The notes under the pieces: model-generated
Seen by the model: the letters and a program-made list of their open reading frames with translations, nothing else
Told to the model about the DNA's origin: nothing
The model's database searches: none
Part shown: in pieces, positions 874 to 24,303 of the stretch
How positions within the stretch are numbered: the stretch's first letter is position 1
Layout: each line of letters opens with the position of its first letter
Virus record (IMG/VR): IMGVR_UViG_3300012936_000029
Coordinates: 1 to 46,343 of that record
Reading direction: 5' to 3' (one strand)
From: a virus
Length of the DNA stretch: 46,343 nt
Translations under genes and position numbers: made by a program

Positions 874-884
874 ACCAAATGAGG

Positions 885-1265: not shown

Positions 1266-1275
1266 GGAGGGCACT

Positions 1276-1596: not shown

Positions 1597-1617
1597 AGTT
1601 TTACAGCAGAAAAAAAG

Positions 1618-1641: not shown

Positions 1642-1644
1642 ATG

Positions 1645-1687: not shown

Positions 1688-1690
1688 GGG

Positions 1691-1776: not shown

Positions 1777-1848
1777 AAGTACTTCACCTAAATTTTTTGT
1801 AATTTGATTTTTTCAGCTGCAGAACCCTTTTCGAGTAAATAGTATACG

Positions 1849-2291: not shown

Positions 2292-2640
2292 AGTCTGATA
2301 TAGTTGCGAAGTGTACACTCACCATATTAAACAGTTCAGTGTCTATGCGTGTGTATGCTGATTGTCCTATTGATATATAGTAGTTACGATCAATACCGTA
2401 GTTAGGAAACACACCAGTTACAAATAGGCATGTGTCGCCCAGTTCCTTTGCAGTGCGTGAGTTGTGTACAGTCAGCAACGACTCAGCGAACGATCTTTTA
2501 GGAAGAAAGTCACTACGATCAACATGCTCAGCAAGCAGTGCCACAACATAGTGTTCTATGTGCAGTGGAAATTCAATTCCAGTTTGTTCTCTAGCTGTGC
2601 TTACTACATCTCTAAACACAGCGACATAAGCATCCTGCAT
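2227..2640 (-). CDS. Hypothetical protein
   Basis: A 137-aa soluble protein without membrane segments. It has an ordered composition with several aromatic residues (LGDTCLFVTGVFP, IDRNYYISIGQSAY), unlike a random frame, and I recall similar proteins of unknown function in marine phages and proteobacteria. The ATG at 2640 is preceded by no Shine-Dalgarno but by TATAAGTA (2646-2653) exactly five bases upstream, the same arrangement as at five other late genes here. The 3' end overlaps a rightward gene by 65 bases. Confidence 0.65.
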   Translation of the reverse strand: MQDAYVAVFRDVVSTAREQTGIEFPLHIEHYVVALLAEHVDRSDFLPKRSFAESLLTVHNSRTAKELGDTCLFVTGVFPNYGIDRNYYISIGQSAYTRIDTELFNMVSVHFATISDFINVCVHGCEKDPIQLYDYDW

Positions 2641-2645
2641 ACTAT

Positions 2646-2653
2646 TACTTATA
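2646..2653 (-). promoter_or_regulatory. T4-like late promoter, leaderless arrangement
   Basis: TATAAGTA on the minus strand, five bases before the ATG at 2640. It differs from the T4 late consensus TATAAATA at one base. With the usual position of the element, transcription would start at the A of ATG. Confidence 0.55.
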
Positions 2654-2682
2654 CACGAACCCCTCTACACTGTGCGTGTGTG

Positions 2683-2775
2683 CTAACGGCAGTTTACACA
2701 CGGATCTAACTCTAGCTCGTGCAAATAAGAGCCATATTTACGACAATCTGTATTGTAGGGGTATTGCACATGCAT
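2683..2775 (-). CDS. Possible 30-aa protein with CxxC end
   Basis: A short frame starting with ATG at 2775 and ending at TAG 2683-2685. The peptide has the composition of a real protein (YNTDCRKYGSYLHELELD, then PCVNCR) and three cysteines, two as CVNC, which could bind a metal. It lies in the otherwise unexplained 2641-2903 gap, downstream of a candidate sigma70 promoter (2817-2845). There is no clear ribosome site, so it may be spurious. Confidence 0.3.
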   Translation of the reverse strand: MHVQYPYNTDCRKYGSYLHELELDPCVNCR

Positions 2776-2816
2776 GTTTGATATCTGTCGTGGCGATTGA
2801 CAGAATTCCAATCTTA

Positions 2817-2845
2817 TATACACCATACAGTACTGTTGTAGTCAA
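2817..2845 (-). promoter_or_regulatory. Candidate sigma70-type promoter
   Basis: Minus-strand TTGACT (2840-2845), a 17-nt spacer and TGTATA (2817-2822). The -35 box matches the TTGACT seen at four other promoters here, but the -10 box is poor (TATATA with a 19-nt spacer is the alternative). It would serve the small frame at 2683-2775 and the gene at 2227-2640. Confidence 0.4.
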
Positions 2846-2894
2846 TTTTCGCTTTACCGTGTTTTGCTACCGCAAACGCTTCGCGTTGTTTGAG

Positions 2895-2918
2895 AAAAAA
2901 CCGCTAACCGCTTCGCGG
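2895..2918 (-). terminator. Rho-independent terminator
   Basis: On the minus strand CCGC (2915-2918) pairs with GCGG (2901-2904), followed directly by six T (2895-2900). It overlaps the stop codon of the oxygenase gene. A second small hairpin (AACGC-GAA-GCGTT) lies just beyond, at about 2873-2887. Confidence 0.6.
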
Positions 2919-3464
2919 ATCGTCTATGAGGCTGTCCGGATTCCAACGCATTCCCCAAGCTGTGAAACTCCAACGAGATCCTGTGTGAGGAGGTCTAGCA
3001 CGATGCAGATCATCACTGGGAAACAGCACTGCCCAGCCTACAGGTAGATCCCATTCATGCTGTTCAGTTTGCAGTGTAGCACCAGGTGCTGACTGTAGCG
3101 TACAGGTCAGTGTAAGACTGCGTTGACTGCTTCTGCGTTCTCGTGTCCATTTGGGAATTGAGTCTCTGTGCCAGTCATAGAACTGTCCAGCTTCATACTG
3201 ACTGATCTGCCAGTGTTCCTGTATCCAGTCCATGGGAAGATCTGGTCTAGCAGTCATTACTGATCTTATTCTTGAGTACAGGTTCCACTTAGGAGGCACA
3301 CAGTCTTGATGCAGCCACCATATGCTGTTGGTGCGTATTGAATGTATTCCGCCCACAGTCCAACCTCTCATCTTGGCATGCTGTAGCTGTGCCAGTTTGA
3401 TTATCTTTTTTGATTCTTTGGCAGTGAACAGTTCAAAAGGAGTGTACAGTGGTTGATGTGGCAT
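2904..3464 (-). CDS. 2-oxoglutarate/Fe(II)-dependent oxygenase
   Basis: A 186-aa protein of the 2OG-Fe(II) dioxygenase superfamily, which hydroxylates a substrate using iron, oxygen and 2-oxoglutarate. The iron triad is visible as HRD (H99, D101) in FYDWHRDSIP and the distal H154 in LFPSDDLHRARP, with R164 ten residues later as the 2-oxoglutarate anchor. The start at 3464 is preferred over the upstream in-frame GTG at 3512: GTTAAATA sits exactly five bases before this ATG, and the GTG start would overlap the DnaE-like gene by 28 bases. Marine myophages often carry such oxygenases; the substrate (protein, nucleotide or sugar) is unknown. Confidence 0.8.
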   Translation of the reverse strand: MPHQPLYTPFELFTAKESKKIIKLAQLQHAKMRGWTVGGIHSIRTNSIWWLHQDCVPPKWNLYSRIRSVMTARPDLPMDWIQEHWQISQYEAGQFYDWHRDSIPKWTRERRSSQRSLTLTCTLQSAPGATLQTEQHEWDLPVGWAVLFPSDDLHRARPPHTGSRWSFTAWGMRWNPDSLIDDPRSG

Positions 3465-3469
3465 GTGTG

Positions 3470-3489
3470 TATTTAACCACGTATTTAAT
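3470..3489 (-). promoter_or_regulatory. Tandem T4-like late promoters
   Basis: Two minus-strand elements: ATTAAATA (3482-3489), which contains the TAA stop of the DnaE-like gene (3485-3487), and GTTAAATA (3470-3477), five bases before the oxygenase ATG. The second is identical to the element before the terminase gene and has the same spacing. Confidence 0.6.
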
Positions 3490-5131
3490 CTCTCTTTTGT
3501 GTTGCGGACCACTCGCTCAGTGTGACAACTTCAGCATCAGAACACTGCACATAGTCTGAATTGTTTGAGTGTCGCACACGGCCTGAGCCTGACACTACAT
3601 CACCATCACGATACTGAAACGGACGCTGTATGGTGATGTCTATGTATTCACCATAGTCAGTGCCCAGGGTGAGAAACGTTACCCAGCGATTGTTACGTCC
3701 TCTGAATACCCTGCCATTGGCTATGATGCCTGCAAACTGTACCCTGTCCAACCACTGCTGACGTACACCCATGCCCTTGGGAAAACTGTGTTGCCACCAG
3801 CCTGGTTTGGTATCAAGGCCCCGACGATGTGCTTCACATTGATACACCCACCCTCGGTAAGAACCTTCACAGTGTTTGAGGTTAGCTCTCCAGAATGCTT
3901 CTGGGTTGTGTGCTTTTTGATAGGCCAGAGCCCATATCAGTCTGCCCAAGTTCACAGCATGAGCTCTGCACAGTCCGAACCCTGACAATTCTTGCAGTGC
4001 TGACATGGCTTCCTGCTTGCGTGGGTTGTTACCCAAGCGTTCTACAAACTCCAATATCTTCTCATCATTCTTTTTTGCAAATGCACGTCTGTACATGTCA
4101 GCTTCATAGTGATCAACACCTATGATGGTTGATATGATATCTATTGCGTCATCTTCAAACACAATAGCGTCCTGCACAGCTTCTCTGCTCCAGTCTTGGA
4201 ACATTGATGCTTTCTGTCTTCCTGACATGGCCACAGGTCTGATCATTGCAGTGGCGAACACACAGTCCTGCATTGATGTAGGCTGTATAGCTCTAAACAG
4301 TCTACGCATTGCAGGCGATTCACCCTGTGTTACACCCAACACATCACCTCTGGCCAACAAGGCGCTTGTGTGTGCATCTGTGTGCGGATAATCCGCCAAT
4401 GCAGTGTGTGGGTCTATTTCCATTAGTTGTGATAATCCGCGGTTGGCCAGTATGTCAACCTTGAGATGTTCTAAGTCTTCAACTTCATATTTGTCTAGTA
4501 GTATTTGATTGTCTGCTGATATAAGTGATTTAGGTAGTTGCCTTGTAAACATTACGATTCCTCCACAGTGTTTTGATATACATCTTTTCTTGCCTAACAG
4601 CTTACGCTCTATGCGTTTAGCTTCTTTTGGATCTACACCTACTGATTCATAGGTGAAGCCCCTGGGCAGATTACCTGTGGCTCCGAGTCGCTTGGCAGCT
4701 TCTCGACGGGCTGACTTTTCCTTATAGGTCACGTAATTGCTTAACCTTGCCGTTTTGCCTGGCCATTTTTTGAATATGCGTTCCATTACTTCTAGTTGAC
4801 GCCAATGTTCAAAGTCAATATCAACATCTGGCAGGTCGTCCCTCATAGGGTTCATAAACCGTGCCACAGGTATCTGCCACTGTATTGGGTCAACATCTGT
4901 TATACCCAATAGGTAGCATACTAGGCTAGAACCTGCTGACCCACGTGTCATATGTGTAAGGTCCGCAGTTAAGTCAATGATGTCGCAGATTTGTAGGAAG
5001 TAATCAGTGAAACGTTGAGAGAGAATGAGCTCAAATTCTTCAGCTAAACGATTTTGATATTCGGGTCCGGGTGGGACAGGCCTTTTAAATCGATTGAGTA
5101 GCCTTTGTATGTTTTCTAAATCTGTTGCCAT
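3485..5131 (-). CDS. Compact DnaE-like DNA polymerase III alpha subunit
   Basis: A 548-aa relative of bacterial DnaE, about half the usual length. It begins where the DnaE palm begins and lacks the N-terminal PHP domain. Visible in order: RGSAGSS (63-69) followed by LLGITDVDPI; the catalytic PDVDIDF (D102, D104); KHCGG (187-191); KVDIL with the third catalytic aspartate (D226); an AHAVN segment corresponding to the KSHA motif; and a C-terminal OB-like domain (FAGIIANGRVF to GRVRH). All three metal-binding aspartates are kept, so activity is plausible. T4-like phages normally replicate with a family-B polymerase (gp43), not seen in this window, so the role may be repair or accessory synthesis. 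Expression is from the late promoter at 5174-5181 with a ribosome site (GAAGG). Confidence 0.85.
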   Translation of the reverse strand: MATDLENIQRLLNRFKRPVPPGPEYQNRLAEEFELILSQRFTDYFLQICDIIDLTADLTHMTRGSAGSSLVCYLLGITDVDPIQWQIPVARFMNPMRDDLPDVDIDFEHWRQLEVMERIFKKWPGKTARLSNYVTYKEKSARREAAKRLGATGNLPRGFTYESVGVDPKEAKRIERKLLGKKRCISKHCGGIVMFTRQLPKSLISADNQILLDKYEVEDLEHLKVDILANRGLSQLMEIDPHTALADYPHTDAHTSALLARGDVLGVTQGESPAMRRLFRAIQPTSMQDCVFATAMIRPVAMSGRQKASMFQDWSREAVQDAIVFEDDAIDIISTIIGVDHYEADMYRRAFAKKNDEKILEFVERLGNNPRKQEAMSALQELSGFGLCRAHAVNLGRLIWALAYQKAHNPEAFWRANLKHCEGSYRGWVYQCEAHRRGLDTKPGWWQHSFPKGMGVRQQWLDRVQFAGIIANGRVFRGRNNRWVTFLTLGTDYGEYIDITIQRPFQYRDGDVVSGSGRVRHSNNSDYVQCSDAEVVTLSEWSATQKRD

Positions 5132-5173
5132 AATAGCCTTCTTTCTTGCCTAGTCGTTGTTTCCAACGCTAAC

Positions 5174-5181
5174 TATTTATA
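5174..5181 (-). promoter_or_regulatory. T4-like late promoter
   Basis: A perfect minus-strand TATAAATA, followed by about 37 bases of leader with a ribosome site before the DnaE-like ATG at 5131. This late promoter lies inside the high-G+C part of the window. Confidence 0.7.
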
Positions 5182-5206
5182 TCAGACAAAATCAGCGGAG
5201 AAGAAA

Positions 5207-5398
5207 ATGGAATGGATTCTTGTTTACATATTAATTGTGGGTAATGAAATAATGGCTGTAAACGCTATGGGGCCAGGTGTTAGATTGGAAACAATGGAGC
5301 AGTGTTTTGTAAGAAGAGAAGAACTTGTTTACAGTATAGGAAATGACAACGGGCAACTACCTCCTGGTAGACAAGCAATTTGTGTTAAGGTTGAATAG
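5207..5398 (+). CDS. Small protein with hydrophobic N-terminus
   Basis: A 63-aa protein. The first 12 residues (MEWILVYILIVG) are hydrophobic, like a signal or anchor, followed by a polar domain with two cysteines (MEQCFVRRE and AICVKVE). I recall similar small proteins with an EQCF...RE segment and a late AICV cysteine in marine T4-like phages, without known function. GGAGAAG precedes the ATG. It is a lone rightward gene, and its end overlaps the leftward acetyltransferase-like gene by 14 bases. Confidence 0.65.
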   Translation: MEWILVYILIVGNEIMAVNAMGPGVRLETMEQCFVRREELVYSIGNDNGQLPPGRQAICVKVE

Positions 5399-5879: not shown

Positions 5880-7310
5880 TTAGTCACTGCCTAAGTTATT
5901 TAAGAATTGTTTTAGTTTTGTGCTGTCAGTTTGAACTTTAATTTTTCCTACAGTATCTCCTTGACTTGGATCATCTTTAGGTTCATCAGTGTCAGTGTCA
6001 ATAGTTCCTGCATTTCTTTTTATTTGATCAAATACTGTTGACTTGCGTTTTGAAAACTCTTGATAATCTTCATCTTCAGCCAAATCTCTAATGCGTAAAC
6101 TGTCTACATCAAACTCTAAATCAATCTTTTGTCCTACGCCCGAACTACTTCTAGTTTTCATAAGTTGTATTTGATATCTGCCACGTTCACGCATAGCACG
6201 ACTTGTAAAGATACCAATCAAGTTGTCAGCTGTATTGATCTTAGATATACCACCACTGATGTGCGAATGATCAAACTCAATCTCTTCTACTGAACTTCTA
6301 TTTAACTGCGATGCAGTAACAAACAGTGTGTTAAGTTCCATTGCTAAATCTCTTAGTTCTTCTGATACATACTTGTCTTTAACAAACAAGTTCTCTGCAC
6401 TAATACGTTTTGCAATAGGCATCATTAAATCTAAATAGTCTACAAGTAACACATCAACTTTGCGTCCTGTTTTTATTTCATATTCTTTCAAATAGCTTCG
6501 TATGTCATTTGCATTTTTACCTGTTGGCATATATTTTACTTGGAATGCTCCAGACTTCTTACCAATCATTTTAACTTTCATTTCAACATCTTCAATATTT
6601 TTAAATATATCGCGTGTTGGAATATCAGTTGTCATACTGTCTACCCGCATACTTACAAGATTTTCACTAAGTTCAAATGTTAGATATACAACGTTCAAAC
6701 CTGCTAATGCCCAATTAACACCTAAGTTTGCTAAGAACAAACTCTTACCACTACCACTACCACCTGCAAATATATTCAGTTCACCTCTGTTGAATCCGCC
6801 AAACAACTTTTTATCAAGGCTTGCCCAACCTGTTGTTACTTGTCCGTTCTTATCTTTTATTGCTTCTAGTCTTGCTCTAGGATCTTTCCAATAGTCTGTT
6901 CCTAAATCTTTTTGTAATCCTATCTGTACTGCCTGTTTTACTAAATCTTCAACAGGACCGTATTCTCCTTTTTCCAGCAAGTCTGCACTTTTTAGTATAG
7001 CACTTTCTAATGCTTTGTGTTTACTAAATGTTTCAAACTCCATAAGAAGCCAGTCATAGTGATTCTCTGCTAATTCTCCAGGATGATTTAAGTCAGCCTT
7101 TGTTGCGGCATTGACCATATCAAATGTAGGCATTGCATTGTGTTCGACTACATATTCATTTATAAACTTTGCCGCAGGCTGTAAGCGTCTGTCAAATGCT
7201 ACGTCATCAAACACAGCCTGACATCTTACAAATGTTTCTGCATCTGTAAGCATCATTTCTAAATATACTTTCTGTATATCGTATCCGTAATCAGCGTTCT
7301 GTCTTGTCAT
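5880..7310 (-). CDS. 41: Replicative DNA helicase, T4 gp41-like (DnaB family)
   Basis: A 476-aa hexameric replicative helicase. The N-terminal helical domain (about 1-130) resembles the primase-interacting region of DnaB-type helicases. The RecA-like domain has Walker A GGSGSGKS (183-190), a Walker B segment VDVLLVDYLDLM and a switch-like TASQLNR. It should unwind the fork and pair with the primase at 10022-11005. It has its own sigma70 promoter (7319-7347) inside the end of the epimerase gene, whose -10 box lies only eight bases before ATG; no Shine-Dalgarno is present. Confidence 0.93.
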   Translation of the reverse strand: MTRQNADYGYDIQKVYLEMMLTDAETFVRCQAVFDDVAFDRRLQPAAKFINEYVVEHNAMPTFDMVNAATKADLNHPGELAENHYDWLLMEFETFSKHKALESAILKSADLLEKGEYGPVEDLVKQAVQIGLQKDLGTDYWKDPRARLEAIKDKNGQVTTGWASLDKKLFGGFNRGELNIFAGGSGSGKSLFLANLGVNWALAGLNVVYLTFELSENLVSMRVDSMTTDIPTRDIFKNIEDVEMKVKMIGKKSGAFQVKYMPTGKNANDIRSYLKEYEIKTGRKVDVLLVDYLDLMMPIAKRISAENLFVKDKYVSEELRDLAMELNTLFVTASQLNRSSVEEIEFDHSHISGGISKINTADNLIGIFTSRAMRERGRYQIQLMKTRSSSGVGQKIDLEFDVDSLRIRDLAEDEDYQEFSKRKSTVFDQIKRNAGTIDTDTDEPKDDPSQGDTVGKIKVQTDSTKLKQFLNNLGSD

Positions 7311-8046
7311 GTAATACTACTATATTATCTTTCTGTCTGTTTGTCAACATATATTTAAGGCTATGCTTAGGTTTAAAGCCTAAACGTTTTAGTTTTTCCA
7401 TATTTGCACAGGTCCACTGTCTTTCATGTGGTGTGTGCATCTTTATAGGCAAGTCTGCAAGTTCTGTTATTTTAATAGGACAGCCTGTCCCTATATCAAT
7501 AGTATCTCCAAAATACTTACTATTAATACATAGTTCAATTGCGTCACATAGGTCGTCTATGTGAATGAAGTCTCTATAATGATTAGTAACATATTCTAAT
7601 TCATTATCAAATAACTTTTGTAGAAACATACCCTTTCTTGGTGTGCTAGAATACACTGTATGAAATCGCATGCCAAGTGTATTAGGATGTCTTGCGGCAG
7701 CTTCTTCTACACAATATTTTGATGCGGCATATGGATTTAAGTCTGGCTCATAAGCTGAACTAGAGCTTGCATAAAGTATACGTGTGTTTGAATAACGTTG
7801 GAATAATCTTTTACTTGCTTCTACATTATTTTCCCAGTAGCTTGAAGGATCTGAAATACTTTCACGTACACCGCTCTTACCTGCAAGGTGAATAATTAAA
7901 TCAAAGTCTTCTTTAAATTCACAAGTTAGTAAATTTTGTTTATCATCATCTACAATATCAAAACCTACAACACTTGCATATTTTGTCAAACGTTTTATAA
8001 GATGACTTCCTATAAAACCTCTATGCCCTGTTAGCATTATTTTCAT
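7291..8046 (-). CDS. NAD-dependent nucleotide-sugar epimerase/dehydratase
   Basis: A 251-aa extended short-chain dehydrogenase. The NAD-binding TGHRGFIG starts at residue 6 and the active-site YAASK pair is Y106/K110. At about 250 residues it is shorter than typical UDP-glucose 4-epimerases (about 310-340), so the C-terminal sugar-binding part is reduced. It overlaps the carbamoyltransferase by ATGA and gp41 by 20 bases. The exact sugar cannot be told from sequence. It likely supplies or modifies a nucleotide sugar for the surface-glycan genes elsewhere in the window. Confidence 0.8.
   Translation of the reverse strand: MKIMLTGHRGFIGSHLIKRLTKYASVVGFDIVDDDKQNLLTCEFKEDFDLIIHLAGKSGVRESISDPSSYWENNVEASKRLFQRYSNTRILYASSSSAYEPDLNPYAASKYCVEEAAARHPNTLGMRFHTVYSSTPRKGMFLQKLFDNELEYVTNHYRDFIHIDDLCDAIELCINSKYFGDTIDIGTGCPIKITELADLPIKMHTPHERQWTCANMEKLKRLGFKPKHSLKYMLTNRQKDNIVVLHDKTER
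7319..7347 (-). promoter_or_regulatory. Sigma70-type promoter, near-leaderless
   Basis: Minus-strand TTGACA (7342-7347), 17-nt spacer, TATAGT (7319-7324), then eight bases to the gp41 ATG at 7310. The predicted transcript starts one or two bases before ATG. It lies inside the epimerase coding region. Confidence 0.7.
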
Positions 8047-9512
8047 GTAAATACCTTTGTATTATATTTTTCTTCAAACAGTTTTGCATCAAGTTCTGTG
8101 TTAACAATTGGTTCACCTTTTATGTTGAGAGAAGTATTCAACAACATAGGACACCCTGTTTCTTTATACCATGCTTCTAACAATTTTCGAAAGCCGTTGT
8201 TAGAATTTTTGCGTACACTTTGTACCCTACTGGTGTTGTCGAAATGTGTGATTGCAGGATAAAGTTTTGGATTTCTGCATCTTGCTGTAAACTGCATATA
8301 CTCTGACTTTGGACCTTCGAAGTTACGTTCGAAAAATTCGTCAAGGATGGCTGGTGCGAAAGGTCTGAACTGTTGTCTTTGTTTAATTTTATTGACTCTA
8401 TCTTTGATGTGCAAGCCCCTAGGATCAGCGAGCAGACTACGATTACCAAGAGCACGTGGACCGAATTCTGCCTTGCCGTTAGCAATTCCGCAAATTCCTT
8501 TGTCTTTAAGTTCTTGTATAGTTTTGTCAATTGGGTAATCTCCTTTAATGTTGTATCCTAAAAATGTATCGTTCCATTTGATACGTTTGTTAAAATGTGC
8601 AAGAACACAACCCACAGCCGAACCACTGTCTCCTGGGTTCGGCATTATCCATACATTACCATTATAATATTTGTGTGCAATGCTGTTTGCTACACAATTC
8701 AAAGCACAGCCTCCACCCAGGACAATATTCCTACTGCCGACCAGCGTTAGTGTTTGTTGTATTAAATGTTCAAACACCATTTCATATACTGCCTGCGTTC
8801 CTGCCGCAATGTCTGCTATATCCTGTATTGTGTTAAGTTCAGGACGCCACCAACGACATCCTCTGTGCAAATTATGTTTGAATCTAATGTATGGATCGTG
8901 TAACCTTAACTCCTCAAAGAAGTCTTCATAAATTATTTGTTTGTATTTTTCAGGATCCCCACAAGCGGCCATACCCATTAGGATATATTCTTCTTCATTG
9001 GGTTTTAGTCCTATACGTTGTGTCATAGCACTATACCAAAGTCCTATACTGTTAGGATAACTTTGACTGTAAATTTTTTTAAGTTTATCTTTAGAGCCTT
9101 CCCAAACTGTTAATGTTTCGAATTCGCCTATACTATCAATAACCACTACAGTAGCATCTGAAAAGGGACTAGTAAAATAGCCGCCGGCGGCATGACTTAA
9201 ATGATGACTAACATAACTAATAGGAGCATTAATACCATACCTACTGAGATAATTTTTAATATTGTTTTCTCCCAGGTTCCAGCCTTGTCCTGCTCGTAAT
9301 TGTCTAATAGTCTTTCTAAAAGGCTTTTCGTACCAAACCACTTCATTAGGTTCTCCCCATTGTTTTGCATATTCAACTATGGATGCATTGAGATGAGGAT
9401 CATTTTTGTTTCTGCTAAACCTTTCACTTTGACTTGCAAATACTAATTTTTTATCATTAAATACTGCAAGACCAGCGTCATGACTGTTGGCACTAATACC
9501 CCATGTAATCAT
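8043..9512 (-). CDS. NodU/CmcH-type carbamoyltransferase
   Basis: A 489-aa O-carbamoyltransferase, which moves a carbamoyl group from carbamoyl phosphate to a hydroxyl, often on a sugar. Visible are the N-terminal GISANSHDAG, the histidine cluster SHHLSHAAGG (H103, H104, H107), GGGCALNCVANS, PGDSGSAVG, and the C-terminal EFGPRALGNRS block. Slightly shorter than most family members (roughly 540-600). Start ATG 9512 has AGGATACGTA upstream. With the coupled epimerase it forms a sugar-modification pair placed between primase and helicase. Confidence 0.9.
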   Translation of the reverse strand: MITWGISANSHDAGLAVFNDKKLVFASQSERFSRNKNDPHLNASIVEYAKQWGEPNEVVWYEKPFRKTIRQLRAGQGWNLGENNIKNYLSRYGINAPISYVSHHLSHAAGGYFTSPFSDATVVVIDSIGEFETLTVWEGSKDKLKKIYSQSYPNSIGLWYSAMTQRIGLKPNEEEYILMGMAACGDPEKYKQIIYEDFFEELRLHDPYIRFKHNLHRGCRWWRPELNTIQDIADIAAGTQAVYEMVFEHLIQQTLTLVGSRNIVLGGGCALNCVANSIAHKYYNGNVWIMPNPGDSGSAVGCVLAHFNKRIKWNDTFLGYNIKGDYPIDKTIQELKDKGICGIANGKAEFGPRALGNRSLLADPRGLHIKDRVNKIKQRQQFRPFAPAILDEFFERNFEGPKSEYMQFTARCRNPKLYPAITHFDNTSRVQSVRKNSNNGFRKLLEAWYKETGCPMLLNTSLNIKGEPIVNTELDAKLFEEKYNTKVFT

Positions 9513-10021: not shown

Positions 10022-11005
10022 TTAATTTTTTAACCATCGTTTTTCTCTCAACTGTATTTTTAGCTTTGTGCTTTCTGCGGCTGATACAATGCTGTATAAA
10101 GTATATAGCCTGCCATTTTCTCTCACACTATCGCCTATATCGTTTATTCCTTCCTGCCAATCAGGCATACTTACAGACCAACCTAATTCAATAGCTTGTT
10201 CTATAAGTTTTGATCCTGCTTTATCTCTATCAGGTATAAGTATTACCTGTTTGTTCAAACTGTTAATTAGTAATGCTTGTTGATCTTTTATTTCACTTCC
10301 TAATAGTGCTACACCTTCTATATGTATAGCATCAAGTGGCCCTTCACAAACAATTACAAATGATTTGTTATAACTTTGTTCATCTAAGTTATATACAAAT
10401 CCAGGTTGTTGTTCGCTTAGATATTTAGGCTTTTTATTATCTAGTATTGTTCTAGCTGTCCAGCCTACAATATGATTGTTATAATAAAAAGGCACTATGA
10501 GTCGATCTCTATATCCAAGCTCAGGTGACCAATAAAACTCTGTATCGTCTAATTGAAAATTTCTTTTTTTCATATAGGAAAGAACTTTATCTAAGTTAGT
10601 ATCTTGTCCCCAATCAGTAATTTTTGTAGCAGAAGGAGGTAAACTAACTTGATTAAATGTTGGTAGTTCTAACATAGGCTTGTAATTTACTACGTCTTCA
10701 TTTATACGGATTATATCAAGAGCTAACTTATTAATAATGTCATCTGGTGCGCCAAGCCATTGTAATAGTTTTCGTAGTTTATGAGATAAGTTTCTACCAG
10801 GTTGCCAACTTGCTTTGAATCCGCAATTGAAACAGTGATAACTTAACCCGCCATCACCATTAGCTATGAGACCGCCTCTGCCTCTAGTATCAGCACCGGT
10901 GCCATTGTGATGGCAACACGGTGCATTGAAAGACAACCACCCACTAGGTGTTTGCTTACGTTTAGGTGGTAAAAAGGTTACCAGAATTTCTTTCACGACA
11001 CTCAT
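10022..11005 (-). CDS. 61: DNA primase, T4 gp61-like
   Basis: A 327-aa primase. The N-terminal zinc-binding region has C30/C31, H32/H33 and C58/C61 (YHCFNCGF). It is followed by a TOPRIM core with the conserved glutamate in VIVCEGPLDAIH and the aspartates in LIPDRDKAGSKL. It would make RNA primers at the fork with gp41, encoded downstream. The gene has a textbook sigma70 promoter (11012-11040) whose -10 box ends six bases before ATG and no Shine-Dalgarno, so its mRNA is probably leaderless. Confidence 0.9.
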   Translation of the reverse strand: MSVVKEILVTFLPPKRKQTPSGWLSFNAPCCHHNGTGADTRGRGGLIANGDGGLSYHCFNCGFKASWQPGRNLSHKLRKLLQWLGAPDDIINKLALDIIRINEDVVNYKPMLELPTFNQVSLPPSATKITDWGQDTNLDKVLSYMKKRNFQLDDTEFYWSPELGYRDRLIVPFYYNNHIVGWTARTILDNKKPKYLSEQQPGFVYNLDEQSYNKSFVIVCEGPLDAIHIEGVALLGSEIKDQQALLINSLNKQVILIPDRDKAGSKLIEQAIELGWSVSMPDWQEGINDIGDSVRENGRLYTLYSIVSAAESTKLKIQLREKRWLKN

Positions 11006-12759: not shown

Positions 12760-13131
12760 ATGTTACGCCAAGAAATTGAGGACAAATATCCTTTTATCAG
12801 TGTCATAACATATGGAGGGAACGAATATGTAGGCATTGTAGTCAACCAGGATCAATACGTTACAACTATTTTAAATTTCGATCATTTAAGATCAACATAT
12901 GATAAAAAGTTATTACTAAAACTAGGACAAATATGGTGGATGGAAAGTAATAGACTAATACCTATTACAATATTTTTACGTAAAGAAATAGAATCAATTA
13001 AGTATTGTGCAATGTCTATGAATAGCAAGGATGTAAAGGTAGTATTAGGTCCTACTGTAAACCTTACTAACTTACATGTAAAGAGAGTAAAACGTAAAAG
13101 CGTTCAGCTAATTAGAAAACCTAAGAAGTAA
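12760..13131 (+). CDS. Hypothetical basic protein
   Basis: A 123-aa protein rich in lysine at its end (VKRVKRKSVQLIRKPKK). It starts after AAGGA at 12754-12758, directly before ATG. The N-terminal half (FISVITYGGNEYVGIVVNQD) looks like a small beta barrel of the SH3 or Sm/Hfq type, which with the basic tail could suggest nucleic-acid binding; this is inference. It is the only rightward gene between 5.4 and 22.9 kb and overlaps the end of the mini-DnaE gene by 11 bases. Confidence 0.6.
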   Translation: MLRQEIEDKYPFISVITYGGNEYVGIVVNQDQYVTTILNFDHLRSTYDKKLLLKLGQIWWMESNRLIPITIFLRKEIESIKYCAMSMNSKDVKVVLGPTVNLTNLHVKRVKRKSVQLIRKPKK

Positions 13132-13681
13132 CTTGCTCACATAATAAATTCATGTGTACTACACACGCCATTGCATACGAAACAGCGTGTGCTTTTTTAA
13201 AGTAGTATTCACCGTTTGTCGGTTTTATCCACACTTCCTTCATTATTATCTCCCAACTCTTGCTCGCTAGATGTCTCTTTGCTGGCCTGATTATTGCTAG
13301 TGTCGCGGCCAATTGACTTACCGAGGTAGGTTTCAATTGTGTCAAGAGTTTGTCGTGACCGCTTAGATGAAAGACTTGATCGACGAAGTCCTTGTGCTCC
13401 AATAGTTCCCATAATGGCTCCTTTCTCATTAGGCTGATTAAATGTGTCTCGTCTTTTACATCTTTGTAAATAGACACATTTAAAAAATCTAATTTAAAGT
13501 ATCCTCTATCTTCTGCTGTTTGATAATCTAACGTGCATAAATTATCAATAGGATTGTGAGGACACTCTGTAACGTATACGCCAGTGTTGTGTTTTTTTCC
13601 TGTATCTAGTTTTGCTACACGGTGAGGAATCTTGTTTAAGATTACATCTCTGTCAGCAAAGTCTATATCAATATCAGGCAT
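13121..13681 (-). CDS. Miniature DnaE-like protein (186 aa)
   Basis: A drastically shortened relative of DnaE that keeps the landmark motifs in order: PDIDIDF at residues 2-8 (D3, D5), HNTGVYV (31-37) matching the HASGVVI region, GYFKLDFLN with the third catalytic aspartate (D65), SQLAATLAIIRP (122-133) and YYFKKAHAVSYA (159-170) matching the KSHA.AYA motif. The PHP domain, the RGS motif, most of the fingers, thumb and OB parts are missing. Too small for an ordinary processive polymerase; it may act with a partner, for instance the compact DnaE at 3485-5131 or another subunit. The ATG at 13681 overlaps the gene before it by 8 bases; it closes the operon that begins at 22019. Confidence 0.75.
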   Translation of the reverse strand: MPDIDIDFADRDVILNKIPHRVAKLDTGKKHNTGVYVTECPHNPIDNLCTLDYQTAEDRGYFKLDFLNVSIYKDVKDETHLISLMRKEPLWELLEHKDFVDQVFHLSGHDKLLTQLKPTSVSQLAATLAIIRPAKRHLASKSWEIIMKEVWIKPTNGEYYFKKAHAVSYAMACVVHMNLLCEQVTS

Positions 13682-13874
13682 TAGATTCCTTTATAATTTT
13701 TTTCCAATGTACTACTTGCTTTTCACCACCAATTGGTTTTTGTCCTACATATACTTCACCTGTTTCCATATCAGTCAATAACCACTTTGATGGACAATGT
13801 GTGACAACTTGCAGTACAACATTTTCTTTGTATGCTTTGACTTCTTTTCCATCAAGCATTTTTCTTGTTGTCAT
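13674..13874 (-). CDS. Small hypothetical protein
   Basis: A 66-aa soluble protein (CPSKWLLTDMETGEVYVG, then HWKKIIKE). The WLLTD.ETGE..VG pattern suggests a small beta domain; I recall similar short phage proteins of unknown role. It overlaps the 57-aa gene upstream by 23 bases and mini-DnaE downstream by 8. A later in-frame ATG at 13859 is possible. Confidence 0.6.
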   Translation of the reverse strand: MTTRKMLDGKEVKAYKENVVLQVVTHCPSKWLLTDMETGEVYVGQKPIGGEKQVVHWKKIIKESNA

Positions 13875-14025: not shown

Positions 14026-14782
14026 ATTTTTTCTCCACTCTATTTTTTGTCAAATGTTTTGGAGTTTTTCTTTCTCCTTCAATAAAAGTTCTATCATTCA
14101 TTACCATTAATTCGTATTCTAATTCTTTTTCATAATCAGGCATTTCAATTGCAAACTCATAATCGGATCGTTTAAACGGTATTATCTGAAGTAACGGTTG
14201 ACCTTTATCTATTCTTATTTCACCATGTTTGTTTAACTTTATAAAAATGTTTATTTCTTTATTTGAAATTAAATCAATATCTGGATCTATTATCCCTGGT
14301 ATAATAGTTATATCATTATTAACATGATAAAACGGAGCAGTTAAAAATAAACTTACACCTTTAGGTACGTCAACAAACCAAGGTGTAGTAAGTTTAATTA
14401 ACTTAGGACAACTATTTTCTAACAATGGTGCATCTTTTATTTGCATCGAATCGTGTGCATATACACATTCACTTAGTTCTTGCATAGCATGAGATAGTTG
14501 ATATTCAAACCCATCTTTCTTTTGTTCACTCCATTTAAATATAATATCAGACCACATTGGTACAATATAACCAGCTCGTACTGAATCAAATATACCTGGA
14601 CAAGTTTTTGCAGTACGTGCATTTGGTTTTCCAAAACGTTTGTAATCCTTTGACAAATTTTTCCACCAAGAAGGAATAAAATCTGTTGCAGGCACAATAG
14701 GACTACCTAGCCCTAATAACCTCCAAATTTTCTTATCATTATCACTAAATCCTCTAGTTGGATAAAATTTAATCTTGTCCAC
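14018..14782 (-). CDS. Conserved hypothetical protein (about 254 aa)
   Basis: A 254-aa soluble protein with several conserved-looking blocks: IPSWWKNL, TCPGIFDSVRAGYIVPMWSD, LTTPWFVDVPKGVSLFLTAP, IIPGIIDPD and QPLLQIIPF. I recall proteins with the WWKNL...CPGI..GY..P.WSD pattern in marine phages and bacteria, all uncharacterised. Starts with GTG sharing its G with the TAG stop of peptide deformylase (TAGTG at 14782). No function is inferred. Confidence 0.7.
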   Translation of the reverse strand: MDKIKFYPTRGFSDNDKKIWRLLGLGSPIVPATDFIPSWWKNLSKDYKRFGKPNARTAKTCPGIFDSVRAGYIVPMWSDIIFKWSEQKKDGFEYQLSHAMQELSECVYAHDSMQIKDAPLLENSCPKLIKLTTPWFVDVPKGVSLFLTAPFYHVNNDITIIPGIIDPDIDLISNKEINIFIKLNKHGEIRIDKGQPLLQIIPFKRSDYEFAIEMPDYEKELEYELMVMNDRTFIEGERKTPKHLTKNRVEKKYA

Positions 14783-15285
14783 TATGCAAGCATCCTATTT
14801 TTTTCTATCTTCTTAGATTTTTTGACTGCCATATTCCATTTCATATTTGAAGCTCTATCTTTAAAAGTAATTCCATGTAAGTGATCCCATTCATGTAAAA
14901 AAACTTTTGTCGTATAGTTACGTACTGCTGTTCTTTTTAATTCAAGTGTTTCGTCATAGTATTCTACAAGTATTTCTTTTGGTCTACGTATTTTCATAAA
15001 CACATTAGGAAAACTTAAACAGCCTTCCATATCTAGTTGTGTTTCTTCTGTGTGTTGTAATACTTTTGGATTAATACAAATTGTTGCGTTGTCTTTAGTA
15101 TCGCCCATTACAAAAACTTTTTTATCTAAACCTATTTGATTAGCTGATAACCCAATACCTTGATTAGAAAGCATGAAGTCTACCATTTCGTCTTTCAATT
15201 TTTTTGGATCAAAGTCTGGATTTTCTATGTCCACATCTGCTACTTCTTTGTTTAAAAATTCGTTAGGATAATATATTAGTTTCAT
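14782..15285 (-). CDS. def: Peptide deformylase
   Basis: A 167-aa metal-dependent enzyme that removes the formyl group from the N-terminal methionine of new proteins. All three family motifs are present: GIGLSANQ (43-50), EGCLSFP with the metal cysteine (87-93) and HEWDH (131-135) with the two metal histidines and catalytic glutamate. Marine T4-like phages often encode deformylase, presumably to speed maturation of phage or photosystem proteins. Coupled to the gene before it by ATGA. Confidence 0.92.
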   Translation of the reverse strand: MKLIYYPNEFLNKEVADVDIENPDFDPKKLKDEMVDFMLSNQGIGLSANQIGLDKKVFVMGDTKDNATICINPKVLQHTEETQLDMEGCLSFPNVFMKIRRPKEILVEYYDETLELKRTAVRNYTTKVFLHEWDHLHGITFKDRASNMKWNMAVKKSKKIEKNRMLA

Positions 15286-18844: not shown

Positions 18845-19351
18845 TTATAACAGCTTTCCAAAATCAATCATTTCAAGTTGCCTTGAAATTTCTTTTACAA
18901 AAAATGCACACTGTGGATTGTCTCCTTCTGAAATAGGAACAGATAATAATTGTCCGTTTTTCATTTTAGGAAAGTACCATTTTACATCATTATAAAAATT
19001 TACTACTTTTACTTCAGCATAATCTGCTTGATAACTTTTTAAAGGATTGAATAAAAATGCATCAAATCCTCTATCATTTAAACTTGTTAATGGCAACACT
19101 TCTAAGTCATTGCCTGTGTTTCTATCGCCAACTGCTAAATGCCAATCAACCGGCATCATTACTTCATTGCCATTTATCTCCATTACAACTGCCGGAGAAC
19201 TAAAACTTTCTAAAAAGATTAATGGTATAAAAAAGAAATCTGGATTATCTACATCTGAATTATCTAATACACTAAATCTTAAATCTTCTTCTAGTTCTTC
19301 GGGTAAATTATTTAAATTATAACTTTGATTATCTAACGTTAATATTCTCAT
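18845..19351 (-). CDS. Phage-conserved hypothetical protein
   Basis: A 168-aa acidic protein beginning MRILTLDNQSYNLNNLPEEL. The start at 19351 gives an ATGA overlap with uvsW and is preferred to the ATG two codons upstream. Segments FFFIPLIFLESFSSPAVVMEIN and MMPVDWHLAVGDRNTGNDLEVLPL look conserved; similar genes beside uvsW are familiar from marine T4-like phages. Role unknown. Confidence 0.65.
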   Translation of the reverse strand: MRILTLDNQSYNLNNLPEELEEDLRFSVLDNSDVDNPDFFFIPLIFLESFSSPAVVMEINGNEVMMPVDWHLAVGDRNTGNDLEVLPLTSLNDRGFDAFLFNPLKSYQADYAEVKVVNFYNDVKWYFPKMKNGQLLSVPISEGDNPQCAFFVKEISRQLEMIDFGKLL

Positions 19352-20805
19352 GTCCAATCTACCTTTTCGATGGTGAATGGGTATTGTGCTTCCTTATAAA
19401 ACTTTTTACGTTGGGTAAGGTGCCGCTTCGCAAACTTACATGTAGATGTAAGATCCCATATTTGTACGAAGTCTTTGTCCTTTGCCTTTCTAACGCCTCT
19501 ACCAATTGATTGTATTACACGAACAAACGACTTACCAGGCTCAATAAGCACGAGATTAAAAATACGTGGAATATTAATTCCCACCGCCGCAACTCCATAG
19601 GTTGCGATAACCACATGGTTAGTACCTTCGTTAATTTCGTCATAGGCTTCCTTTCTGTCTTTTAATTTGACATCGCCTTTTACAAAAGTTGAGCCTGGAA
19701 TAAGTTGTTGTAATTTTTCGCCTGCTGATATTCTATCTACAAGTATTAACGTATTACCAGATTCTTTTATTTTATTAAGAACAGATGCCATATAATCTAA
19801 TCTCCTATCATTAGTGACTAGATACTTTAGCTCAGACTGATAATCTCTGTGTGCAACAGTGTCTATCATCTGTACTATATTTACATGACAGTTGGATAAT
19901 ACTCCTTTATCTTGTAATTCTTTTGCACTTATTTGTCCAATTACTGGACCGATACTTGCATGTATACTTTCAAATTCAAATGCCTCTTTTGGTACTGTGC
20001 CTGTCAATCCCCAACGTATTGGGGCATTGCGTAAATTACGTGTTAATAAATTTTTTAATACTTCTGCTTTTGCTTGATGTACTTCGTCTATAATGATTGT
20101 ACTAACACCTTCAAGAAACTCTGCAAGACTCAGCACAGCACTTCCGTCTTTAAATTTTTTATCTAATATATTCAAAGATTGCCATGTACATATTGTATGT
20201 GTTTTGCCGAGCTCTTTTCTATCGCCAAAGTACACGCCTACGTCTAATCCACAATTAATGTAATCATCTTCAGTTTGTGTGACTAGACTTTTATTAGGAA
20301 CAATTACCAGACTACGTCCGTAAGTTTCTGTTAGATTACTTAAGGTGGCAGTAATAATAGTTTTGCCTGCTCCTGTTGCAACCTCTTGTAATGATTGTGG
20401 ATTTTCTAAGAAGTTATTAATTACTTCTACTTGATAATCACGCAAACGAATTTTCTCACCCTCAGCTGGATGACCTTTAGGCCATGTTTTATCTCCCCAG
20501 TACTCTGATGTAATTGGATTGAAAGATAAGTTTACAGGATGTCTTCTATCTTCTATGTCTACTATCTCTACACCTTGTTTGTTAAGAACTGTATTAATAG
20601 TATCAAGATGATTGACATAACCTGATCCACCAATACCAAAGAAAGCAACTTTGCCGTCCCATCGTCCTAATTTATATTGAGGCATATATCTAGCATACGG
20701 CACTTCAAACTTTAGAGCATTAGAGAGCTTCCTACGTACATCTACGTCTAATCCTTCTAATTTTATGTTCACTTCATCTTCAATTATAAGTTTACATGTT
20801 GCCAT
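19348..20805 (-). CDS. uvsW: UvsW-like superfamily 2 DNA helicase
   Basis: A 485-aa helicase related to T4 UvsW, which unwinds recombination intermediates, R-loops and stalled forks. An N-terminal DNA-binding region (about 1-115) is followed by Q-motif LRDYQVEVI, Walker A ATGAGKT (143-149), DEVH, LTGTVPKE, and the C-terminal QSIGRGVRKAKD arginine-finger motif. Full length for the family (T4 UvsW about 500). Adjacent upstream gene is the 404-aa unknown, joined by TAATG. Confidence 0.92.
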   Translation of the reverse strand: MATCKLIIEDEVNIKLEGLDVDVRRKLSNALKFEVPYARYMPQYKLGRWDGKVAFFGIGGSGYVNHLDTINTVLNKQGVEIVDIEDRRHPVNLSFNPITSEYWGDKTWPKGHPAEGEKIRLRDYQVEVINNFLENPQSLQEVATGAGKTIITATLSNLTETYGRSLVIVPNKSLVTQTEDDYINCGLDVGVYFGDRKELGKTHTICTWQSLNILDKKFKDGSAVLSLAEFLEGVSTIIIDEVHQAKAEVLKNLLTRNLRNAPIRWGLTGTVPKEAFEFESIHASIGPVIGQISAKELQDKGVLSNCHVNIVQMIDTVAHRDYQSELKYLVTNDRRLDYMASVLNKIKESGNTLILVDRISAGEKLQQLIPGSTFVKGDVKLKDRKEAYDEINEGTNHVVIATYGVAAVGINIPRIFNLVLIEPGKSFVRVIQSIGRGVRKAKDKDFVQIWDLTSTCKFAKRHLTQRKKFYKEAQYPFTIEKVDWT

Positions 20806-22019
20806 TATATTTTTTCAATCTTTACATGTCCTCCCCAAGGTAAATGCACATCATCATAGTGCATTACAAGATCAATGCTTTCGATATAAGTTTGTATATT
20901 CTTCATTAATCTAAAACCTTTTAACACAATAGCAAGTTCCGGATACCAGTCACTTGCTACTAAAGGTTTAGGAATCTTATTACTACTAATATAAACTATT
21001 TTGGTTTGTTTGTCAAGTGGAGAATTTAAATTATTATTTTTTATAAACTTATTAAATTCTTTTCCTTCTGTATCATTATCTAATCTAAACAATACACTAA
21101 TACTTTCATTAGGTATAATATGTTGAAAAGATCGATATGTATGAAGAAGTAAGTCGTATTCTTGATCTTTAGGTAAAACTATCAATATAGGAAACCTATA
21201 CAATTCAAGAACTGATTCTACAATATTATTAAAAGTATATTGACTAGAATCAATAAAAATTGAACTATTACCTCTACCTAATATTTTTTTTGTTAAAGGT
21301 TGTAAATTTGAGATTGCTTGTTGCAGTTCTACATCATCAAAATATTTTAGTCCTAGAAGATTTTCTCTATCTTTGTATGCAACAATATTTTCAGGAGAAG
21401 GTTCTCCAATAGAACTTATTGCATAATCGATTGCATTGGCATGTAAATTTTTTATCTTAAATCCATATATACCTGGTGCATTATTTTCTTTATCGTCATT
21501 CATTGTTTTAAGTATTCCGTAATAATCAAGCAATTCTTTTTCTACTTCAAAATTACAATCTTTTAATTTATTAATAATTTCAAACAAATTATGTTCATTG
21601 AAATCTATAAAATGTGTTTTTGACTTAGGATCATAATTTTTATTTTTTTGAAGCTTCTGTAAGAATTCAATATGTTTTATCATTTTTTTGCTGAAAGGGA
21701 ATCTTACAGCAATATAATTTTTATCATTTATTTGGTGCAGAGATATTAATTTTTGCCTATCTATACTTCTTAAAGGCATTCTTAAAGAATTAAGATCTTG
21801 CTCTAATGTGTCAAAACCATACACACTAAATTGTTCCTTATATTCTAAAAGTTTTTTCTTTGCCAGTTCGTGTTGCCTGTCTGTTAACGGAGTTTGCCTA
21901 AATACTTGTCTAGCTAAACTATTCATGAGGACTTGATCGTTTTTTGCACAAAAAAATTTAATATCTTTTTTTGTGACAACTAATCCACTGAATATTTCTA
22001 GATAATCTTCTATATACAT
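20805..22019 (-). CDS. Hypothetical 404-aa protein upstream of uvsW
   Basis: A lysine-rich soluble protein of 404 residues. A central segment (about 105-155: NYIAVRFPFSKKMIKHIEFL then TKTHFIDFNEHNLFEIINKL) resembles the HARP-type domain found next to SF2 helicases that rewind DNA, in layout only. The C-terminal half (RFPILIVLPKDQEYDLLLHTY, TKIVYISSNKIPK) could be a degenerate helicase-like fold, but no Walker motif is visible. First gene of the long operon under the TTGACT promoter at 22027-22055. Possible partner of UvsW; inference only. Confidence 0.55.
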   Translation of the reverse strand: MYIEDYLEIFSGLVVTKKDIKFFCAKNDQVLMNSLARQVFRQTPLTDRQHELAKKKLLEYKEQFSVYGFDTLEQDLNSLRMPLRSIDRQKLISLHQINDKNYIAVRFPFSKKMIKHIEFLQKLQKNKNYDPKSKTHFIDFNEHNLFEIINKLKDCNFEVEKELLDYYGILKTMNDDKENNAPGIYGFKIKNLHANAIDYAISSIGEPSPENIVAYKDRENLLGLKYFDDVELQQAISNLQPLTKKILGRGNSSIFIDSSQYTFNNIVESVLELYRFPILIVLPKDQEYDLLLHTYRSFQHIIPNESISVLFRLDNDTEGKEFNKFIKNNNLNSPLDKQTKIVYISSNKIPKPLVASDWYPELAIVLKGFRLMKNIQTYIESIDLVMHYDDVHLPWGGHVKIEKI

Positions 22020-22026
22020 GTATACT

Positions 22027-22055
22027 ATTATACAAGATTATAAACTAGAAGTCAA
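22027..22055 (-). promoter_or_regulatory. Sigma70-type promoter, near-leaderless
   Basis: Minus-strand TTGACT (22050-22055, TTGACTTCT), 17-nt spacer, perfect TATAAT (22027-22032), seven bases to ATG 22019. It drives the operon from 22019 down to about 13121. Confidence 0.8.
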
Positions 22056-22886
22056 TCGGATAAGTGGTAGTCCTTTAGAAATTTCTTCAACTGTCCATTC
22101 GGTATATGCGATATCATTCAACCATTGTGTTCTATCAGGCTTCAACGGATTTTCTATTGTTGAATAATCTGGATTGCCTACTTCGTATGCTAAACTAGAT
22201 GGTCCTGTAAACACAGGTACACCGCCTATCACAGCTTGTGTTGCAGGATTACTTGACCAATTAACTATTGCATATGCGTCTTCTACAATAAAATCATAAT
22301 CATCATAGCTATCAGGATACTTTACTGGTTGTTGTATTCTTACATTTTTAAATTCATATTGCATACCGTCTACTCTACATCTTGGATGTGGACGCACTAT
22401 TACTTCTCGATCAGTATATTTTCTAATTTGATCTATAGCATCAAACACCCATGAAGCAGGTTTTTTAAGATGCCTCCACTGCTGACTTGCAGAATGTTGG
22501 CAAGCTATTACTATCGGTCCATTGCTATCTGTTTTCCATGGTTTTAAATATAAGCCTAGCTGTTTTGCTCTTTCAGGTCCATTTTGTTTAGGTCCAAAAT
22601 TTGCATCTCTGTTTATTCCGTTTATTCCTACTTTCCAAGTGTGTCCTCTATGTAATCCCCCAACTTCTAATACAATAATCTTTTTTCCTGCTAACATTGC
22701 ATTATCCCAAATCTCTTTGTTCTTTAACATTCTTCCGTACCAAAGTACACTCCAAATTACATCTATATCTGCGTTTGGATCGTTATAAACAACTTTATGT
22801 CCGTTAGCTACACAACTATGTGCAAAAGCATCAAATACTGGTTTACTGTTTAGTGCGCCATTTAATGTCCATAAACTAAAAATCAT
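22038..22886 (-). CDS. KpsC/KpsS-like polysaccharide transferase (copy 1)
   Basis: A 282-aa protein. Start 22886 is chosen over the upstream frame extension, which would run into the divergent gene. C-terminal landmarks shared with three other proteins here: REVIVRPHPR, an AIVNWSSNPATQAVIGGVPVF block, and a closing PDRTQWLNDIAYTEWTVEEISKGLP. The pattern recalls capsule-type KpsC/KpsS glycosyltransferases (Kdo transferases), an assignment made from motif shape and context. N-terminal half is less conserved. The promoter region is shared with the divergent gene at 22925. Confidence 0.6.
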   Translation of the reverse strand: MIFSLWTLNGALNSKPVFDAFAHSCVANGHKVVYNDPNADIDVIWSVLWYGRMLKNKEIWDNAMLAGKKIIVLEVGGLHRGHTWKVGINGINRDANFGPKQNGPERAKQLGLYLKPWKTDSNGPIVIACQHSASQQWRHLKKPASWVFDAIDQIRKYTDREVIVRPHPRCRVDGMQYEFKNVRIQQPVKYPDSYDDYDFIVEDAYAIVNWSSNPATQAVIGGVPVFTGPSSLAYEVGNPDYSTIENPLKPDRTQWLNDIAYTEWTVEEISKGLPLIRLTSSL

Positions 22887-22887
22887 G

Positions 22888-22913
22888 ATTAAATACCTTG
22901 TATAGTATTTACA
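22888..22913. promoter_or_regulatory. Divergent pair of T4-like late promoters
   Basis: The 38-base gap between two divergent ATGs holds ATTAAATA (22888-22895, plus strand) and TGTAAATA (22906-22913, minus strand), arranged as an inverted repeat around CCTTGTATAG. The plus gene has ribosome site AAAGGAG (22913-22919). Confidence 0.5.
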
Positions 22914-22924
22914 AAGGAGACATA

Positions 22925-23770
22925 ATGTCAGACATAACTGTGGTAACAACATTTCACAAACCTGGTTTAGAACAATACGGGCAAAGATTTTTAGATTCTT
23001 TTGCACAAAGAGTAGATAAAAAAATAAAACTTTTAGTGTATGCTGAATCATGTCAACCTGTAAATCCGGATCCTAATCAAATTAAAATATTTGATGCATT
23101 TGAAGCATTACCTAAATTGAATCAATTCAAGTCTACTTGGGGGAATGTACCAAAAGCAAACGGAATACCGCCAGATGATATTAAAGCTAGACGCCCAAGA
23201 GATTGGCACAAAGAATTTAAATGGCATGCTATAAGATTTGCTAATAAAGTTTATGCAGTATTTGATGCATGTCAACGTAGTAAAGATTGGTGTGTATGGA
23301 TGGATGCTGATACCTTTGTTCATAGTGACTGGACTTATGCTGATTTTAAAAAACAACTACCCGACAATATATGGTTAACTTATGTTGGCAGAGGCAAAGG
23401 TTCGCAAACTTGGCCGGAATGTGGATTTTACGGAATGAACATGAGAGATCCTGTGTGCAAATTATTCTTAGAAGAATTTGAAAGAATGTATGAAGATGCA
23501 GAAAACGGAATTTTCACTTTAGAAGAGTGGCATGACAGTTTTGTATTTGGCCACATATTAAATAAATTTAAAGCAAGAGATCCTAATGTCCTCGACTATA
23601 GTGCAGAAATGTATTTAAAAGAAGCTAAAACAGGAGGAGGAGGACATCCTTTAATAAATGGTATACTTGGTACTTGGTTAGATCATATGAAGGGTGTGCG
23701 TAAAAAAGAAGGACGAAGTAGAGTTAAGGATATGATGGTGAATCGAACTGAAAGTTATTGGACACAATGA
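22925..23770 (+). CDS. GT-A fold glycosyltransferase
   Basis: A 281-aa protein starting SDITVVTTFHKPGLEQYGQRF with the metal-binding DxD in CVWMDADTFVH (D127, D129). ATG 22925 follows AAAGGAG; the ATG at 22898 has none. It is clearly related to the protein at 32075-32818 (same VTTF...YG opening, AVRF/AIRF, WxDxDT and a late GHPLING/LNGY..H segment), so the island carries two diverged copies. Donor and acceptor sugars unknown. Confidence 0.7.
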   Translation: MSDITVVTTFHKPGLEQYGQRFLDSFAQRVDKKIKLLVYAESCQPVNPDPNQIKIFDAFEALPKLNQFKSTWGNVPKANGIPPDDIKARRPRDWHKEFKWHAIRFANKVYAVFDACQRSKDWCVWMDADTFVHSDWTYADFKKQLPDNIWLTYVGRGKGSQTWPECGFYGMNMRDPVCKLFLEEFERMYEDAENGIFTLEEWHDSFVFGHILNKFKARDPNVLDYSAEMYLKEAKTGGGGHPLINGILGTWLDHMKGVRKKEGRSRVKDMMVNRTESYWTQ

Positions 23771-24303
23771 AGCCTTGGATATTCGACGAATTTAAATTAT
23801 ATCTTGATGAAATAGAAATAGAAACACTTTGTGAAATAGGAACACACAAAGGCAACACTGCTGTACAGATGATTTTGCACCTTGCTCCTAAGGGTAAGAA
23901 TTTTTCTTATTTTGGCTATGATGTGTTTGACTATGCAAGAAACAACGTTCCTTTTAATCAAAAAGAAAGAAATGGTAAAGGCGGTGCATCAAAAGAATTT
24001 GTTATAATGAGACTTAATAACTTACAAGAATCTTTTCTTAATTTTAATTACCAATTATATGAGGGTTTGACCAAGGATACATTACAAGAAAATAGTTTTG
24101 ATTTTGTATATATAGATGGCGGTCATAGTTATGAAACTGTAAAGTTTGATTATAGTAAAGTAAAAAACAGTAAAGTTATAGTATTTGATGATGCAAAAAA
24201 TAAAAATAATGCAAATGATGTACCAATATTTCTAAATGAATTATCTCAAGAAGTTGAAATAGAATATTTTAAACGTTGGGCTATTATACGTAATTACGAA
24301 TAA
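23767..24303 (+). CDS. SAM-dependent methyltransferase
   Basis: A 178-aa methyltransferase-24-like protein: CEIGTHKGNTAVQMIL for SAM binding and DFVYIDGGHSYETVKFDYSKV, the typical IDGGHSYE motif of enzymes that methylate sugars. Coupled by ATGA to the glycosyltransferase before it. The end overlaps the leftward gene at 24284 by 20 bases. Confidence 0.75.
   Translation: MKPWIFDEFKLYLDEIEIETLCEIGTHKGNTAVQMILHLAPKGKNFSYFGYDVFDYARNNVPFNQKERNGKGGASKEFVIMRLNNLQESFLNFNYQLYEGLTKDTLQENSFDFVYIDGGHSYETVKFDYSKVKNSKVIVFDDAKNKNNANDVPIFLNELSQEVEIEYFKRWAIIRNYE

Follow-up and report, generated by a model that had tools for sequence, protein, structure and literature searches.

What is a 186-residue viral protein that carries the catalytic motifs of the DNA polymerase DnaE? 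The gene lies in a 46,343-nucleotide stretch of viral DNA (IMG/VR record IMGVR_UViG_3300012936_000029, positions 1 to 46,343), which we call the window. A sequence-only reading described the product as a "miniature DnaE" and offered three possibilities: a regulator, one half of a split enzyme, or a minimal nucleotidyltransferase. The split enzyme is now the best supported of these: related phages encode a complementary N-terminal half. Such an enzyme was published in 2021, and the protein in the window adds a marine member to that split Pol III alpha family (PHROGs 11778 and 11127). Below, we refer to the window protein and its homologs as the C-half and to the complementary protein as the N-half.

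The C-half open reading frame is intact, and the motifs read from its translation are all present in DnaE order: PDIDIDF (residues 2 to 8), a HASG-like KHNTG (H31, G34), KLDF (D65), IIRP, and KKAHAVSYA. The protein matches PHROG 11778, annotated as "DNA polymerase," with residues 3 to 186 aligned to positions 8 to 197 of the 197-position profile (E=4.5e-60). There are 63 phage records that match it over at least 80% of its length, nearly all of them jumbo phages, including PA5oct/Paride, RaK2, 121Q, GAP32, Atu_ph07, Phosso, SCTP-2, Munch, and XacN1. Pfam returned the fingers domain PF17657 alone, at 14.4 bits, under the 22-bit cutoff. The profile of the C-half family matches Mycobacterium tuberculosis DnaE1 (5lew) in the collinear blocks 414 to 424, 565 to 663, and 773 to 788, with an E value (0.01) that is weak by itself. 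Judged from the sequences, the resemblance to DnaE is far beyond chance. A search of 84,980 cellular species genomes gave nine matches to the C-half, all on contigs of metagenome-assembled genomes and all beside genes of the phage cluster. Two contigs labelled as a Neomarinimicrobiota metagenome-assembled genome, PBPT01000016.1 (L389; 335 kb) and PBPT01000082.1 (L395; 153 kb), carry the same phage cluster as the C-half and look like jumbo-phage contigs that were wrongly binned.

The aspartates of the C-half can be matched to those of E. coli DnaE. The N-half profile stops at E. coli residue 392, just ahead of PDFDVDF, which places D3 and D5 on D401 and D403, while D65 is assigned to D555 by motif. 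The catalytic roles of these three E. coli residues are well established. The sequence-only reading had proposed that the three aspartates are kept, and homologs bear this out: all 104 that cover D3 and D5 retain both, and all 105 that cover D65 retain it. In addition, H165, Y169, R132, P133, and K135 are unchanged across 106 distinct C-halves. Could the gene nonetheless be what is left of a full-length DnaE gene in decay, as the absence of large portions of DnaE might suggest? Preserved catalytic residues had already been held to argue against decay, and the wider comparison agrees, with a dN/dS of 0.07 to 0.14 (about 0.1) between the window gene and its relatives, constant length and motif spacing across homologs, and invariant catalytic residues. 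These observations rule decay out, and we give it practically no chance.

Predicted structures place both halves on DnaE as well. AlphaFold2, a single-chain predictor, gave models with a mean pLDDT of 85.8 for the C-half and 88.5 for the N-half of the viral locus L229. In VIA-align, the best matches of the C-half model were DnaE1 of M. tuberculosis (Z 9.2, residues 419 to 808), DnaE of E. coli (Z 9.0; 2hnh), and that of Taq (Z 8.8; 2hpi). Every chain above Z 3.7 was a bacterial DNA polymerase of the DnaE family, and the first unrelated chain came at Z 3.7. The last 95 residues of the N-half model matched M. tuberculosis residues 307 to 413 (Z 12.6), with the first unrelated chain at Z 3.1. The models of the two halves fit side by side on DnaE with no overlap. 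Foldseek likewise ranked DnaE first for both halves, at modest E values (0.005 to 0.006). Residues 1 to 78 of this N-half (L229:9076-9594) showed no alignment to DnaE.

The C-half has the DnaE palm fold with its metal-binding motifs; like the three bacterial enzymes, it has the metal-binding strands of the palm, the three aspartates, IRP, and KKxHAxxYA. However, it differs from a complete bacterial DnaE in retaining only the C-terminal part of the palm and a short remnant of the fingers. The PHP domain, the thumb, the dNTP-binding fingers segment, and the OB domain are missing from both halves, and the clamp-binding region is absent as well. The sequence-only reading was correct that PHP, most of the fingers, the thumb, and OB are absent from the C-half; it did not mention that the GRGS motif and the initial portion of the palm around it are absent too. 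The distance from the PDIDID start to the third aspartate is 62 to 67 residues in C-halves (about 64 in the window protein) versus about 154 in E. coli, a shortening consistent with a lost thumb. Similarly, IRP and KKxHA are about 31 residues apart in the C-half versus about 110 in M. tuberculosis DnaE1, and the fingers block around ..VYQEQ..AD.LRKAMGKK of intact DnaE is gone.

Where, then, is the rest of the palm? The C-half chain opens at MPDIDIDF, without the preceding GRGS-bearing part, and the codon before (P)DIDID is ATG, TTG, or GTG in 91 of 94 distinct homologs. The N-half (PHROG 11127) terminates ..GRGSSVASYVLYLIG..YDLD..EFLR-stop, and in intact DnaE the segment equivalent to this end runs directly into PDIDIDF. 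The cut is thus exact: the N-half ends at ..EFLR and the C-half begins at MPDIDIDF. Since the one starts precisely where the segment of the other ends, the DnaE core has been cut inside the active site, between GRGS and the catalytic aspartates. For this reason, "miniature DnaE" is a misleading name for a protein whose palm is divided after the GRGS motif and ahead of the catalytic DxD.

The complementary piece was found in whole genomes. A DnaE catalytic-domain model searched against 10 complete genomes of isolate phages gave exactly one match in each, a distant open reading frame of 169 to 213 amino acids (stop to stop) that covers only the palm just before PDIDID. This separate N-half gene of about 175 amino acids occurs in all 10 isolate jumbo phages examined and in 10 of 11 large viral contigs (at least 180 kb, picked by either half), and lies some 15 to 225 kb from the C-half gene in the genomes examined. 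Its last 95 or so residues make up the part of the palm that comes before PDIDID and contains the GRGSS motif, in which G139, G141, R142, G143, and S144 are invariant among 56 sequences. No natural fusion of the two halves appeared among 296 fetched sequences. Each of the 20 genomes carrying both halves (the 10 isolates and 10 contigs) also encodes a family-B polymerase, and PolA was not found in the 10 isolates. The N-half is absent from the 46-kb window, and neither it nor a family-B polymerase was seen in contigs of the window lineage, which extend up to 155 kb and end before the region that holds the N-half in relatives. This absence is uninformative because the contigs stop short: in the nearest large relatives, both genes sit 120 to 210 kb from the C-half. 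The window phage is expected to have both, outside the fragment.

The C-half carries the strand with two aspartates, the third aspartate, and the fingers remnant, and the N-half of its relatives carries the GRGSS palm. Altogether, two genes that occur together supply the complementary parts of a single active site; their catalytic residues are conserved, and they are under purifying selection. It is tempting to attribute a smaller role to the C-half, as a noncatalytic regulator or decoy that mimics part of host DnaE and interferes with host Pol III, in view of its small size and its likeness to one part of the host enzyme. However, a decoy would not need invariant catalytic residues, a matching N-half is found wherever genomes are near complete, and the clamp-binding and OB regions, possible sites of competition, are absent, all of which makes this role improbable. 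Instead, the C-half is probably the C-terminal, metal-binding part of a minimal DnaE-type (family C) nucleotidyltransferase core that is split in two; the two chains would associate, and the enzyme is likely an accessory one. Association would rebuild a single Pol-beta-type active site, with the N-half GRGSS holding phosphates and C-half D3, D5, and D65 holding two metals, and the rebuilt pair would catalyze nucleotidyl transfer. More tentatively, the pair may act as an accessory in replication or repair, for instance by filling gaps or extending ends, next to the family-B polymerase. An accessory role is likelier than that of main replicase because the pair lacks the thumb, PHP, OB, and the fingers segment that selects dNTPs.

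How far can polymerization be assumed? It is not assured, since neither half has the fingers block that handles an incoming dNTP. The pair could be a nucleotidyltransferase other than a templated DNA polymerase, adding to ends or modifying another substrate. We regard this as unlikely, though deserving serious consideration: the Pol-beta-type core alone has been kept, no DnaE fingers segment was detected outside the C-half in the 10 isolate jumbo phage genomes, and a family-B polymerase accompanies the two halves in every genome that has both. However, the fingers motifs that are retained (IRP and KKxHAxxYA) are strongly conserved, and the genes lie in a replication cluster, which fits DNA synthesis. 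The cluster has a conserved order of UvsW helicase, C-half, a convergent 123-amino-acid gene (phrog_11637) that overlaps the C-half by 11 nucleotides at its 3' end, primase, and DnaB helicase (Table 1). Within it we also observed a peptide deformylase (14782-15285, minus strand) and a carbamoyltransferase (8043-9512, minus strand).

Table 1. Position and support of the C-half gene, its motifs, and neighboring replication genes in the window
Feature	Position	Strand	Support
Single-chain 548-aa DnaE core, no PHP	3485..5131	-	PF07733 E=2.2e-41; PF17657 E=1.8e-15
DnaB-like replicative helicase (phrog_19)	5880..7310	-	58/80 C-half loci
DNA primase (Toprim, phrog_47)	10022..11005	-	70/80 C-half loci
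Convergent neighbor, phrog_11637, function unknown	12760..13131	+	phrog_11637 E=3.4e-29; 76/80 C-half loci
C-terminal half of split minimal DnaE (phrog_11778), 186 aa, ATG start	13121..13681	-	phrog_11778 E=4.5e-60; model alignment to DnaE palm and fingers
KKAHAVSYA motif, residues 162-170	13172..13198	-	H165 and Y169 in 106/106
IIRP motif, residues 130-133, in retained fingers part	13283..13294	-	R132 and P133 in 106/106
Codon of third catalytic aspartate D65 (E. coli D555)	13487..13489	-	105/105 homologs
Codons for catalytic aspartates D3 and D5 (D401/D403 in E. coli), the DxD of PDIDIDF	13667..13675	-	104/104 homologs covering site
AAAGGA, ribosome-binding-like, upstream of C-half ATG	13687..13692	-	Sequence
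UvsW-like helicase, opposite side of cluster	19348..20805	-	64/80 C-half loci

The window also encodes a second DnaE-type protein, a single chain of 548 amino acids that is abundant in marine viral contigs. It has a GRGS-like TRGSAGSS, PDVDIDF, a thumb-like insert, fingers, and a C-terminal region that is OB-fold-like by eye. Of 36 contigs from the window's marine lineage with enough sequence to tell, 33 have its gene 4.6 to 9.2 kb away from the C-half, and the DnaB helicase adjoins it in 114 of 117 related loci; recurring at this frequency, the linkage of the two DnaE-type genes is real. The G+C content is 0.41 to 0.49 at positions 1 to 5300 versus 0.30 to 0.39 across the rest of the first 16 kb. 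A chimeric contig, which the composition of the first 5.3 kb might suggest, is rejected by the same helicase and C-half linkages. The two proteins share the superfamily and the catalytic motifs, as do other single-chain phage DnaE-type proteins (phrog_405 and phrog_11165). In contrast to the C-half, these are single chains of about 550 amino acids with fingers, and the relationship is distant (hhalign probability 50%, E=1.7e-4 for the 548-residue protein), too distant to support the latter as a direct parent of the C-half.

In the window lineage, might the C-half partner the single-chain DnaE rather than an N-half? The constant proximity of the two genes and the lack of an N-half in lineage contigs of up to 155 kb point that way. 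However, the 548-residue protein, with a GRGS-like motif, aspartates, and fingers of its own, needs no help, and those contigs fall short of the region where relatives carry the N-half; we consider such a partnership doubtful. A broader conjecture, which we hold to be rather unlikely, is that the marine lineage runs three DnaE-type genes, the two of the split enzyme and the single-chain PHP-less one, or else has lost the N-half and uses the C-half to work with or regulate the single-chain DnaE. If true, the polymerase would be modular, its catalytic half serving as a subunit that can be exchanged. We did not find the co-residence of a split C-half and a single-chain DnaE described.

The split minimal Pol III alpha of group 2.2 jumbo phages, with distantly encoded N- and C-parts, was described by Iyer et al. 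(2021; PMC7824862), who treat it as a model of the ancestral enzyme. The window protein agrees with their description in its C-terminal unit, and its near-complete relatives agree also in the distant N/C split and in the accompanying family-B polymerase; it differs in that no N-half is present in the fragment and that its lineage has a separate single-chain DnaE nearby. Iyer et al. also state that other Pol III domains are lacking in phages that have the split version, which does not hold for the window's marine lineage because of this co-resident single-chain DnaE. No experimental follow-up of the split enzyme was found in the literature searched. The cyanobacterial DnaE is split over two genes and joined by a split intein. 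The phage enzyme likewise occupies two genes, but its cut falls elsewhere in the protein, and neither half has an extension the size of an intein, as the chains end a few residues beyond the DnaE-like region and C-half open reading frames are at most 232 amino acids, stop to stop. The "split polymerase" of phage MIJ3 is a different thing, a family-B enzyme with an intein. Here, an active site is divided between two small proteins encoded far apart, and this arrangement is conserved across jumbo phages of very different hosts. It offers a compact system for asking what minimum of DnaE is needed for nucleotidyl transfer, for which the co-resident single-chain DnaE of the marine lineage provides a natural comparison.

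Elsewhere in the window, a cytidylyltransferase gene (PF02348) adjoins a gene of the DAHP/Kdo8P-synthase family (PF00793; 16526-17945, minus strand), a pair that suggests phage-encoded synthesis of a CMP-Kdo-type sugar. Positions 22000 to 33300 hold a series of genes resembling sugar-nucleotide epimerases, methyltransferases, and glycosyltransferases, mostly recognized from translations alone, which suggests surface-glycan modification.
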